This document shows positions 16,659 to 50,265 of a DNA stretch of 64,000 nt, piece by piece; positions within the stretch are counted from its first letter, which is position 1, and every line of letters starts with the position of its first letter. The notes under the pieces were generated by a model that was not told the origin of the DNA, made no database searches, and saw only the letters and a program-made list of their open reading frames with translations. The position numbers and the translations under genes were made by a program. Origin of the DNA: Intrasporangiaceae bacterium (lineage in GTDB: Bacteria; Actinomycetota; Actinomycetes; Actinomycetales; Dermatophilaceae); assembly GCA_021324575.1 (NCBI GenBank), contig JAJPIW010000032.1, positions 1-64,000 on the forward strand, written 5' to 3'.

Positions 16659-16785
16659 CACGTGCTCCGGGGTCGGTGCAACTCCGAACCGGCGGTAACA
16701 GTCCGCGACCCGGCCGCAGCCAGCGGCCGGTTGACGAGGTGCAACTCCTCGACCGACGGTGAAAGTCCGGATGGTAGGCAGCACG
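16659..16785 (+). promoter_or_regulatory. FMN riboswitch upstream of ribD
   Basis: The conserved RFN-element segments are all present: GGGGTCGGTG, CCGAACCGGCGGTAACAGTCCGCGAC, and CCGACGGTGAAAGTCCGGATGGTAGGCAGCACG closing with the 5' CACGTGCTCC. It binds FMN and shuts off riboflavin synthesis. No T-tract terminator follows; a hairpin at 16811-16847 (GTGGGTTCGG..., ...CGACCCAC) may be the expression platform. It differs from the copy at 20330-20456 at only four positions. Confidence 0.95.
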
Positions 16786-16810
16786 AGCCCGAGGCGCGTT
16801 GGCGTCGCGG

Positions 16811-20271: not shown

Positions 20272-20329
20272 GCCCCGAGCCACTCAGGCCGGCCTACCCG
20301 ATCACCCGGCGCGCGGCATACGATGTCCT

Positions 20330-20456
20330 CACGTGCTCCGGGGTCGGTGCAATTCCGAACCGGCGGTAACAGTCCGCGACCCGACCGCAGCCAGCGGCCG
20401 GTTGATGAGGTGCAAGTCCTCGACCGACGGTGAAAGTCCGGATGGTAGGCAGCACG
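20330..20456 (+). promoter_or_regulatory. Second FMN riboswitch, upstream of ribM-like gene
   Basis: This is a second complete RFN element, 127 nt, with four substitutions relative to the one at 16659-16785 and the same upstream GCGGCATACGATGTC promoter segment. It places the downstream PnuC-family transporter under FMN control. About 110 nt separate its end from the ATG. Confidence 0.95.
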
Positions 20457-20566
20457 TATGCCGCTTCGGCACCGTGGTCCTGGTGGCCCGGGGTCTCCCG
20501 GCGCGGCATGCACGTTCCCCGGAGTTCGTCCCTGCACCACGACAACTCCAAGGACGAACACCTCTC

Positions 20567-26584: not shown

Positions 26585-26630
26585 GGTCGCCATCGTGCCG
26601 CATGCCTCGATACCTCGCGCCTCGCGCCTC

Positions 26631-26705
26631 CCGGCTCCTCGTTCCCCGGCTCCTCGTTCCCCGGCTCCTCGTTCCCCGGCTCCTCGTTCCCCGGCTCCTC
26701 GTTCC
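26631..26705. repeat. Five perfect tandem copies of a 15-mer
   Basis: CCGGCTCCTCGTTCC is repeated five times without interruption. A multiple-of-three unit keeps frames open on both strands and explains the repetitive shadow ORFs there. Confidence 0.95.
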
Positions 26706-26878
26706 CCGCACGTGCGGGGTTGTTCAGACCTACCCGCCGGTAACCCCGCCATAACCCCGCACGTGCGGGCTCGGTTGGGCGGGCCCCGCACCGGCGGGCC
26801 CGGTTGGCTGACCCCGCACGTGCGGGGTTGTTCAGACCTACCCGCCGGTAACCCCGCCATAACCCCGCACGTGCGGGG
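26704..26878. repeat. Duplicated 66-bp unit bounded by CCCCGCACGTGCGGGG
   Basis: Copies at 26704-26769 and 26812-26877 are identical over 66 bp. The 16-bp palindrome CCCCGCACGTGCGGGG occurs four times (26704, 26755 with a last-base change, 26812, 26863), spaced 51, 57 and 51 bp. A degenerate CCCCGCACCGGCGGG lies between at about 26784. Confidence 0.9.
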
Positions 26879-33315: not shown

Positions 33316-33845
33316 CCACAGAGCGCGACCACCGCATGGTGGTCGACGACGACCTGGACGTCGCACCCGACGCGAGCAGCCGGCATACGGCGCTCCTGGA
33401 CGTCGTCGGACTGCTCGCCCGGCTGGTTCTCGGTGGCGTCCTCATCGTCGCCGGCGCCCTCAAGATGGGCAACCCCGAGGGGGCCGCGCGCGCGGTGCAG
33501 GCCTACCGGGTGATGCCCTACGAGGTCGCCACCTACGTCGGATACGCCCTGCCCTACGTGGAGATCATCGTGGGCGCACTGCTCGTCGTGGGTCTGTTCA
33601 CCCGGGTCACGGCGGCGATCGGCGGGATCCTCATGTTCGCCTTCATCATCGGCATCAGCCAGGCCTGGGCTCGCGGCTTCACCATCGACTGCGGCTGCTT
33701 CGGCGGCGGCGGGCAGGTGGCCGCGGCGCAGACGAAGTACCCCCAGGAGATCGCTCGCGACATCGGCCTGGCCCTCTGTGGTGCCTGGCTGGTCCGGCGC
33801 CCGCGATCCTTGGCCAGTCTCGACCGAGCCCTCTTCGGGGCCTGA
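33312..33845 (+). CDS. MauE/DoxX-family membrane protein
   Basis: The 177-residue protein has four membrane helices with the MauE/DoxX pattern ARLVLGGVLIVAGALKMGNPEG and a DCGCFGGG cysteine pair near residue 120. Such proteins partner thioredoxin-like proteins in disulfide or methylation-like redox tasks. It overlaps trpA (GTGA) and precedes a DsbA-like protein, which supports a redox role. Confidence 0.75.
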   Translation: MTTERDHRMVVDDDLDVAPDASSRHTALLDVVGLLARLVLGGVLIVAGALKMGNPEGAARAVQAYRVMPYEVATYVGYALPYVEIIVGALLVVGLFTRVTAAIGGILMFAFIIGISQAWARGFTIDCGCFGGGGQVAAAQTKYPQEIARDIGLALCGAWLVRRPRSLASLDRALFGA

Positions 33846-33861
33846 CCCACCAGCCCCACCC

Positions 33862-33921
33862 AGCACTGCCCGACCTAGCACTGCCAGACCCACCACTGCC
33901 GGACCCACCACTGCAGGAGAC
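33862..33921. repeat. Four degenerate 15-bp tandem repeats
   Basis: Units AGCACTGCCCGACCT, AGCACTGCCAGACCC, ACCACTGCCGGACCC and ACCACTGCAGGAGAC follow one another in the gap before the DsbA-like gene. The last unit carries its SD, CAGGAGA. Confidence 0.7.
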
Positions 33922-33930
33922 GCACGAACC

Positions 33931-34767
33931 ATGGCCCAGCGCCCGGACGAGAAGGCCGCCAACGCGCGGCAGGCCAAGATCGACGCCGCCCGCAAGGCGA
34001 GCAAGACCGGTCCCAACAGGATCATTGTCGCCTCGGTGGTCGCCGTCGTCGCCATCATCGCCGTGGTCGCTGGTGTCATCATCAACAGCGAGGCCAGCAA
34101 GAACGCCATCACCCAGGGCGGCAAGGCGCTCCCCGCTGGTGTGAGCGCGATGGGTCAGGGCTGGGTCGCGAACGCCGCGGTCGCCAAGCCCGACGCGCCG
34201 ACATTGTCGATCTACGAGGACTTCCGCTGCCCGGTCTGCCAGGAGCTGGAGAGCGCGTTCGGCTCCGAGATCGAGAAGGCGGCCCAGGCCGGCACGGTCA
34301 AGGTCGCCTACCACTTCAAGACCGTCATCGACAGCCACTACCCGACGGGCAACAGCCAGCAGGCCGCCTCCGACGCGCTGTGTGCCGCCGACGCGGGGGC
34401 CTTCTGGAAGTACCACGACGCCCTCTACGCCAACCAGCCGACGGAGGGCACCGACTTCACCGCCGCCCAGTTCCTGTCCTTCGCCGAGCAGGCCGGGATC
34501 AGCGGCGACAAGCTGAAGACGTTCCAGGCGTGCGTCAAGGCGGGCAAGTACATGAACTACGTCAAGTCGACCGAGGATGCGTCCTTCAAGAACGGCATCA
34601 CCGGCACGCCCGCGGTGTTCCTCAACCACAAGGCCGTCAAGTGGACCGCCTTCCAGACCTCCGCCGGCGACCCGGACCCGGCTGCCTTCGCCGCCATGCT
34701 CACCTCCGGGACGGTGCCGGCCGGCAAGGTCGATGCCGACCTGGCCAAGGCAAAGGACGTCAGCTGA
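33931..34767 (+). CDS. Membrane-anchored DsbA-like thioredoxin-fold protein
   Basis: The 278-residue protein has one N-terminal signal-anchor helix (residues ~31-50) and an extracytoplasmic DsbA-like domain. The active site is FRCPVCQ near residue 100 (CPVC, EDFRCPVC context) and the cis-proline loop is TGTPAVFL. It likely oxidises or isomerises exported proteins. The neighbouring MauE/DoxX protein could reoxidise it. The ATG follows GGAGA. Its stop overlaps the presumed lgt start. Confidence 0.85.
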   Translation: MAQRPDEKAANARQAKIDAARKASKTGPNRIIVASVVAVVAIIAVVAGVIINSEASKNAITQGGKALPAGVSAMGQGWVANAAVAKPDAPTLSIYEDFRCPVCQELESAFGSEIEKAAQAGTVKVAYHFKTVIDSHYPTGNSQQAASDALCAADAGAFWKYHDALYANQPTEGTDFTAAQFLSFAEQAGISGDKLKTFQACVKAGKYMNYVKSTEDASFKNGITGTPAVFLNHKAVKWTAFQTSAGDPDPAAFAAMLTSGTVPAGKVDADLAKAKDVS

Positions 34768-35659
34768 CCACGTATGCCGCGCTGCTCCCGGTCTCGATCC
34801 CGAGCCCGACCGTCGGTGCGTTCCACGTCGGGCCCCTCGTCGTCCGGGGTACGCCCTGTGCATCCTCGCCGGCATCGTCATCGCGGTCTGGCTGACCGGC
34901 CGCCGCCTGGAGGCCCGCGGGACGCCGGCGTCCAAGTCCCTGGACATCGCGGCATACGCCGTCCCGTTCGGGATCGTCGGTGGCCGGCTGTACCACGTCA
35001 TCACGAGCTGGCAGCCGTACTTCGGTGCGGGCGGGCACCCGGTCGACGCGTTCAAGATCTGGCACGGCGGCCTGGGGATCTGGGGCGCCATCGCGCTGGG
35101 CGCCCTGGGTGGCTGGCTCGGCTGTCGCCGGTTCGGGGTGCCGTTCCGTGACTACATCGACGCGGCCGCGCCCGGCGTGGCCTTCGCCCAGGCGCTCGGC
35201 CGGTGGGGGAACTGGTTCAACAACGAGCTCTACGGCCGCTCGACCTCGGCGCCCTGGGGGCTGACCATCCACCAGTGGGACGAGGGGCAGGGCAGGGCGG
35301 TCGTCAACGCGGCGGGCAAGCCGGTCGTGCTCGGGACCTTCCAGCCGACGTTCCTCTACGAGTCCGTCTTCCTCGTCGTGCTCGGCCTGCTCCTGCTCCG
35401 GGTCGACAAGGTCCGCTCGCTGCGCCCCGGTCAGCTGTTCGGGCTCTATGTCGCCGGCTATCCGGTCGGTCGGGTGGTCATGGAGTTCCTCCGATCGGAC
35501 GAGGCCAACCACATCCTCGGGCTGCGGGTCAACGTGTGGACCTGTCTGGTCGTGTTCGTCCTGGGTGTCGTCATCTACCGCCGATCCGGTCGGTCGAACG
35601 GGCCCACACCGCCCTCGCCGACGTCGCAGGCGGAGACCGCCGACCACGATGTGAGATAG
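34764..35659 (+). CDS. lgt: Prolipoprotein diacylglyceryl transferase, apparent frameshift
   Basis: Lgt attaches diacylglycerol to lipoprotein cysteines in the membrane. The C-terminal ~265 residues are clear: HGGLGIWGAI, the GRWGNWFNNELYG signature and several helices. They lie in one frame (…YALCILAGIVIAVWL…) with no ATG or GTG nearby. The typical N terminus, TTYAALLPVSIPSPTVGAFHVGPLVVRG, lies in another frame. The switch falls at the G4 run 34846-34849: one extra G would give VRGYALCIL in one frame. The best start is CTG 34764 (AAAGGA 6 nt upstream), overlapping the previous stop as CTGA. A sequencing error is the simplest reading; a real mutation is possible. Confidence 0.75.
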
Positions 35660-48915: not shown

Positions 48916-49242
48916 ATGGGCAGGCGACTCTCACCGCAGTCCAGTGGCGTCCTGGACGCGCTGGCGGACGATCCGATCACGTGGCGCTACGGCTACGAGC
49001 TGGGGCAGCAGGTCGGTCTCCGGGCCGGCACGCTGTACCCGATCCTGATGCGCCTCAGCGAGGGAGGCCTGCTCGAGGACTCCTGGGAGAGCGATCCGCC
49101 CGCAGGGCGGCCGCCGCGCCACCTCTACCGGCTCACGGCACTGGGCCAGCAGGCAGCGGCGGAGCTCGGGTCGGCGTCGAGTGACGCAGCCACGCACTCG
49201 GTGCGTGGGATCCAGGGACTCGCGACGCGGAGCGCATCGTGA
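48916..49242 (+). CDS. PadR-family transcriptional regulator
   Basis: The 108-residue winged-helix protein has the PadR pattern RYGYELGQQVGLRAGTLYPILMRLSEGGLLEDSW and RHLYRLTALGQQ. PadR proteins usually repress an adjacent operon and respond to small molecules or stress. It is probably leaderless and overlaps the next gene (GTGA), which should be its partner. Confidence 0.9.
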   Translation: MGRRLSPQSSGVLDALADDPITWRYGYELGQQVGLRAGTLYPILMRLSEGGLLEDSWESDPPAGRPPRHLYRLTALGQQAAAELGSASSDAATHSVRGIQGLATRSAS

Positions 49243-50265
49243 GCCGCTGGTGGGCGGGCGACCGACGCGATGCCGCCGCCCTTTTCCTCGACTGGACCGT
49301 TCCCCTCCTGCCCGACACCCGCCGGCAGTGGGGTCGAGCCATGCAGGCCGAGCTGGCCGGCCTCGGCCCCTCGGCCGATCGGTGGCGGTTCGCCGGAGGC
49401 TGCGCACTGGCCATCCTGCGGCGCCCGTCACTCGGCGCGCTCGGGGCGCTGCTGGTTCCGGTCGGGTTCGTCGTAGCGACGGTCCGGCTCACCGCCGGGA
49501 CGGCATACCTTCCTCTTCACCTGGTCCTCATTGCGATGGTGATCGTGCTGGCGGCGCTCTACCTGTGCGGCGATCGCGTCGAGCTCTTCGTGCCACGGCG
49601 CACGGGATCGCACGTGGCCGGCGCGGTCCGAGTCGGCGGTGCGCTGACTCTCGGGTGGCTCGCCCTGGGCATCGTGCTCAGCCACCGCTCCGGCGACGGC
49701 AACGTCGTGGACCGCGCCAGCACCGGCGTGCCCATCTTCACCGTCCTGCTCGGGCTCTGCCTCGTCGGGTTCCTGGCGCTGACGTCGCCCGCGCTCGCTG
49801 ACAACCGCGTTCTGACGCGCGGCGTCGGTCTCGGCGTCCTGGCGGCGGTCGCCTGGCTGGCGACGGCTCTGGCGGCTCTGCCGATCCCCCCTGTCAAGTG
49901 CGTCGGCGTTCCTGATCCTGGCGGCCGCGATCCTGACCGGAGCGGGCCTGGGCGCGCGACGCGGTGATGCAGCGATCACGGCGCTGTGCGTGGCCCTGGT
50001 CGGGTCCCTGTCGATCTTCGTCGTCGTCCAGCTGGCACTGGCCTTCGGCCCGGCGGGCTGGATCCCGTCGGACACGGCAGCCCTCACCCCGGCTGCTCGG
50101 CTCGCGCAGAGCCGGGTCGAGGCGTTGGAGAGCTATCTCAGCCTCATGCTGGTGGGTGTCGCCGCGGCCGTGACGATCCTCCTCCGGGCCATGAACCGCC
50201 ACCCCTGGGCCCAGCCGGCACCGCAGCCATCCGCCGCGGCCACCGTCGTCGACCCGATCGGCTGA
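49239..50265 (+). pseudogene. PadR-linked membrane protein, frameshifted at a C6 run
   Basis: Two frames together make one multi-helix membrane protein. The first (49239-49967, starting SRWWAGDRRDAAALFLDW) has about five helices and ends abruptly in PVKCVGVPDPGGRD. The second frame resumes the hydrophobic pattern as SSASAFLILAAAILTGAGLG and continues to 50265 with two more helices. Removing one C from the run 49886-49891 (CCCCCC) joins them as PIPLSSASAFL. The gene overlaps padR by GTGA, as PadR target genes often do. A sequencing error and a true frameshift cannot be separated here. Confidence 0.7.

Follow-up and report, generated by a model that had tools for sequence, protein, structure and literature searches.

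Within the 64,000-nucleotide window analysed here, taken from contig JAJPIW010000032.1 of an actinobacterial genome, the gene lgt carries two anomalies: it lacks an ordinary start codon, and its reading frame is broken 28 codons into the protein. The gene is the orthologous lgt, encoding prolipoprotein diacylglyceryl transferase (Lgt), of a Nostocoides-like actinobacterium (Nostocoides was formerly Tetrasphaera). The CTG that stands in place of an ordinary start is a feature separate from the frame break. Comparison with the two other genomes of the genus suggests that the CTG is a real, rare and genus-wide start codon rather than an artefact or damage, and the break is probably an ordinary, private and technical defect. 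Our overall explanation, in which we have good confidence, combines a break confined to this assembly, arising by error or by very recent mutation, with a conserved CTG start used by reinitiation. The frameshift itself is unremarkable; the curiosity, modest but testable, is the conserved CTG start.

A probable CTG start codon shared across the genus

The N-terminal frame of lgt contains no ATG, GTG or TTG from position 34764 to the break, and the nearest in-frame start upstream, GTG 34641, lies inside the preceding gene. This upstream gene (33931-34767), which like all parts of lgt described below lies on the forward strand, encodes a thioredoxin/DsbA-like protein (Pfam Thioredoxin_4, E 5e-20; DSBA, E 1.6e-9), is supported by the frame model described below and ends with a TGA stop at 34765-34767. 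The proposed lgt start, CTG 34764-34766, overlaps this stop by four bases as CTGA. Six nucleotides before it, still within the upstream gene, stands the Shine-Dalgarno-like sequence AAAGGA (34752-34757). Trained on the window only and without homology, a codon-usage frame model sets the start of the gene at 34762, where the coding signal leaves the upstream frame. A preliminary description made from the sequence alone had noted the missing start and proposed this same CTG and AAAGGA, and the sequence bears out both; it also counted the lack of an ATG together with the frameshift as one damage, which does not hold, as this feature is distinct and conserved in the genus.

Of the named relatives, the closest are a Nostocoides metagenome-assembled genome (85% identity; locus L038) and Nostocoides japonicum T1-X7 (73%; locus L039), both of the same genus as the window. 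The junction reads AAGGACGTCAGCTGA in the window, AAGGACGTCAGCTGA in L038 and AAGGACCTCAGCTGA in L039, and AAGGAC[G/C]TCAGCTGA is present in all three genomes of the genus that were compared, which are three independent assemblies. In each of them the TGA closes the DsbA-like gene and the CTG overlaps it as CTGA, at the same position, six bases past a conserved AAGGA.

Starting from the conserved Tyr codon just past the break, we read the frame of each relative in the upstream direction. This reading covers the relatives that could be oriented and placed, with opposite-strand loci skipped and N. japonicum read via its other locus, L039. An ATG, GTG or TTG lies within 34 codons in 77 of the 79 relatives with a readable motif, and the two that have none are L038 and L039. 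At the upstream stop, the relatives carry GTGA (37), ATGA (7), CTGA (7) or TTGA (2), and five of the seven with CTGA have another start close by. The combination of a conserved start position devoid of ATG, GTG and TTG with a CTG retained behind a Shine-Dalgarno sequence was found in the window, L038 and L039.

It is improbable that the true start in the genus is an ordinary codon far upstream within the DsbA-like gene. The lgt frame of the window is indeed open back to 33879 and includes GTG 34380 as well as GTG 34641, but L038 lacks any ATG, GTG or TTG in the stretch from its in-frame stop, which lies 465 nt upstream of the Tyr codon, to the conserved motif. In L039 the closest such codon is over 300 nt upstream of the Tyr codon, and the frame model treats the sequence as far as 34761 as part of the upstream gene.

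Nature and origin of the frame break

A one-base offset divides the first 28 codons from the remaining Lgt. Read from CTG 34764, the first frame gives the conserved N terminus LTTYAALLPVSIPSPTVGAFHVGPLVVRG (34764-34847), then departs from the Lgt sequence and reaches a stop at 34893-34895. The second frame, running through 34850, gives YALCILAGIVIAVW (YALCILAGIV...) and carries the Lgt body (34847-35659) up to a stop that ends at 35659. The switch falls at CCGGGGTACG, whose run of four G occupies 34846-34849, and the frame model independently changes frame at 34844/34845. The claim in the preliminary description that lgt is split at a G4 run is therefore confirmed by the reading frames and the model alike.

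Every relative read, L038 and L039 included, has the N-terminal ...PSP...GP..[IVL].. motif in the reading frame of the body; the gene is divided between two frames in this assembly only. lgt is thus intact in both sister species, and the break is confined to the present assembly. The Ornithinimicrobium locus L099 had seemed to share the break, but this was an artefact of Tyr codon placement, and its N terminus is intact across the site. The Lgt of that strain, Ornithinimicrobium sp. INDO-MA30-4 (complete genome), switches frame further downstream, after EEIYDIA (L099 2395-2795), probably through an unrelated sequencing error.

Compared with L038, the 28 N-terminal codons show dN 0.072 and dS 0.642 (dN/dS 0.11), and 200 codons of the body show dN 0.069 and dS 0.522 (dN/dS 0.13). 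This equal purifying selection indicates that both parts were under constraint until very recently.

An error of sequencing or assembly is the most likely origin of the break, favoured with modest confidence, followed by a recent real mutation, with programmed slippage unlikely; the preliminary description was right to raise an assembly error. Two considerations temper this attribution. Assembled sequence alone would not distinguish an error from a mutation. In addition, the window contains 431 four-base G/C runs, plus 106 that are longer, and a single other clear break among them indicates that homopolymer error is not systematic; with hundreds of runs of 4-6 G/C left unbroken, homopolymer-prone sequencing is weak as a general cause. 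A frame-switch scan of 406 kb of the genome raised 17 flags, most of which resemble weak or ordinary gene starts, and the two clearest in-gene breaks with no nearby start codon are lgt and a membrane protein gene near 49,890, both in the window. This second gene (49239-50265), which follows a PadR-like regulator, is seemingly broken at a C6 run (about 49886-49891), where the coding signal shifts between frames with no start codon near the switch. A search of 60 family genomes for its homologues gave none. The literature search on long-read frameshifts in Tetrasphaera was likewise negative.

The strongest alternative is a real and recent mutation that abolishes function, although we consider it the less probable origin. 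Such a strain would be without Lgt and would leave its preprolipoproteins unlipidated. Loss of lgt is possible in some Gram-positive bacteria, and since the assembly is sound elsewhere in the window, an isolated indel may have a biological origin. Against this stand the equal purifying selection on the two halves, the catalytic motifs retained in the body, an intact LspA and the unbroken frame in both other genomes of the genus.

Recoding of the gene, by programmed -1 ribosomal frameshifting or by polymerase slippage on the G run, would yield full-length Lgt, and the preliminary description had offered ribosomal slippage as an explanation. The sign of the offset is the one that a -1 slip would correct, but we regard recoding as very unlikely. 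The zero-frame codons are CGG GGT after C (C CGG GGT, 34844-34850), and re-pairing of the P-site codon with CCG would bring a middle-base mismatch, so the site is not an X XXY YYZ heptamer. A G4 run offers little length for transcriptional slippage, folding of the next 101 nt is no stronger than that of shuffled sequences (z = 0.31) and the arrangement occurs in no relative read. Of the features expected for programmed -1 frameshifting, namely a slippery heptamer, a stimulatory structure and conservation in relatives, none was found. Slightly less likely still is translation of the body from ATG 34733, which exists in its frame but is not conserved and would create a new Arg-rich N terminus, with many arginines ahead of the first membrane helix, in a part of the protein that is normally extracellular.

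The break matters for annotation only, in that lgt would be called a pseudogene.

Proposed initiation by termination-reinitiation

The arrangement AAAGGA-N6-CTGA, with an overlapping stop and start behind a Shine-Dalgarno sequence, has the form of a termination-reinitiation pair, and from the sequence lgt is probably translated from CUG with the aid of the intragenic Shine-Dalgarno sequence and termination-reinitiation. For ordinary start codons, experiments have established that terminating ribosomes reinitiate at 4-nt overlaps with the aid of a Shine-Dalgarno sequence inside the upstream gene (PMC6728339). The lgt junction shares the 4-base overlap and the intragenic Shine-Dalgarno sequence of the ATGA and GTGA pairs described there (Huber et al. 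2019), and GTGA, one of those two forms, is the usual overlap in the lgt family. It differs from them in that the restart codon in this genus is CTG (CTGA) and the coupling is putative.

In intact copies of the gene, a ribosome ending the DsbA-like gene would be held by the intragenic Shine-Dalgarno sequence and restart on CUG. In the simplest history, the ancestral start would be the GTG of a GTGA overlap, and a change in the last codon or codons of the upstream gene would have turned it into CTG. The CTGA arrangement would give low Lgt synthesis coupled to the upstream gene, and either low expression may suffice for an enzyme such as Lgt or reinitiation may tolerate CUG. We tentatively propose, at somewhat less than even confidence, that the only lgt of the genus is stably CUG-initiated by reinitiation in a GTGA-derived CTGA overlap, with a low Lgt level tied to that of the DsbA-like protein.

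Several observations weigh against initiation on CUG. CUG initiates at about 0.86% of the level of AUG and accounts for about 0.024% of bacterial starts (PMC11497404), an ancestral GUG became CUG in 1 of 5,080 reconstructed starts (PMC5622118), and a selection experiment in mycobacteria neither selected nor enriched CUG among leadered starts (PMC4633059). Furthermore, the initiator tRNA is standard in all three genomes of the genus, with a GGG/CCC anticodon stem, and provides no global cause for CUG use. We accordingly rejected an altered, CUG-tolerant initiator tRNA: in the anticodon stem all three G-C pairs are intact, and the stem-loop is identical in the three genomes. We also rejected the idea that the genus uses CTGA restarts generally: stretches of about 400 kb from this genome and from N. 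japonicum contain a few CTGA junctions that lack another nearby start, but apart from that of lgt none shows, by eye, an AAGGA at the right spacing; the others resemble short intergenic gaps.

As in other natural bacterial CUG starts (PMC11497404, PMC5622118), CUG is the only conserved start candidate of this lgt. Unlike them, it is preserved in each of the three genomes of the genus, inside an overlap and on the only gene for a widely retained enzyme. CUG is the poorest NTG start in standard reporters, yet it appears to serve this enzyme in three related genomes. The gene thus offers a clean natural case in which to ask whether ribosomes restarting at an overlapping stop are less strict about the start codon; if the proposed reinitiation on CUG is true, it would show that termination-reinitiation relaxes discrimination against CUG. 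Gene callers limited to ATG, GTG and TTG will mis-start or miss this lgt.

Identity of the gene and other features of the window

Across the genome as a whole, which comprises 4.24 Mb in 103 contigs and is 98.8% complete, a search gave one match to lgt, making the gene the sole copy and excluding, for this assembly, the second lgt that the preliminary description had suggested might lie elsewhere. The gene was found in 37 of 38 sampled relatives of the order. lspA is likewise present in one copy, and the presence of LspA indicates that the lipoprotein pathway is kept.

The Lgt body scores above the cut-offs of both family models: 201.5 bits against PF01790 (cut-off 24.9; profile positions 14-238 of 240) and 125.7 against TIGR00544 (cut-off 118.9). 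Alignment with the Lgt structure 5azb shows that the catalytic motifs are kept in the body, namely the Tyr just past the break, GRWGNWFNNELYGR and EFLRS. In its GRxGNxxNxELxGR and EFxR motifs and its placement between a preceding DsbA-like and a following gltB-like gene, the gene resembles known Lgt (structures 5azb/5azc); it departs from it in the N-terminal 28 codons, which are out of frame in this assembly, and in the CTG start. lgt ends the run trpB-trpA-MauE/DoxX-DsbA-like-lgt, and the open reading frames of the window give the order MauE/DoxX, DsbA-like, lgt, gltB-like. An imperfect 15-bp tandem repeat (33840-33914) lies between the MauE/DoxX-like and DsbA-like genes.

Elsewhere in the window, two FMN riboswitches (16659-16787 and 20329-20459) lie on the same strand, 3.5 kb apart. 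The interval 26630-26878 contains a perfect 15-bp tandem repeat of 5.3 copies, CCCGGCTCCTCGTTC, adjoined by degenerate repeats that include a CCCCGCACGTGCGGGG palindrome, close to where a gene on the minus strand begins.
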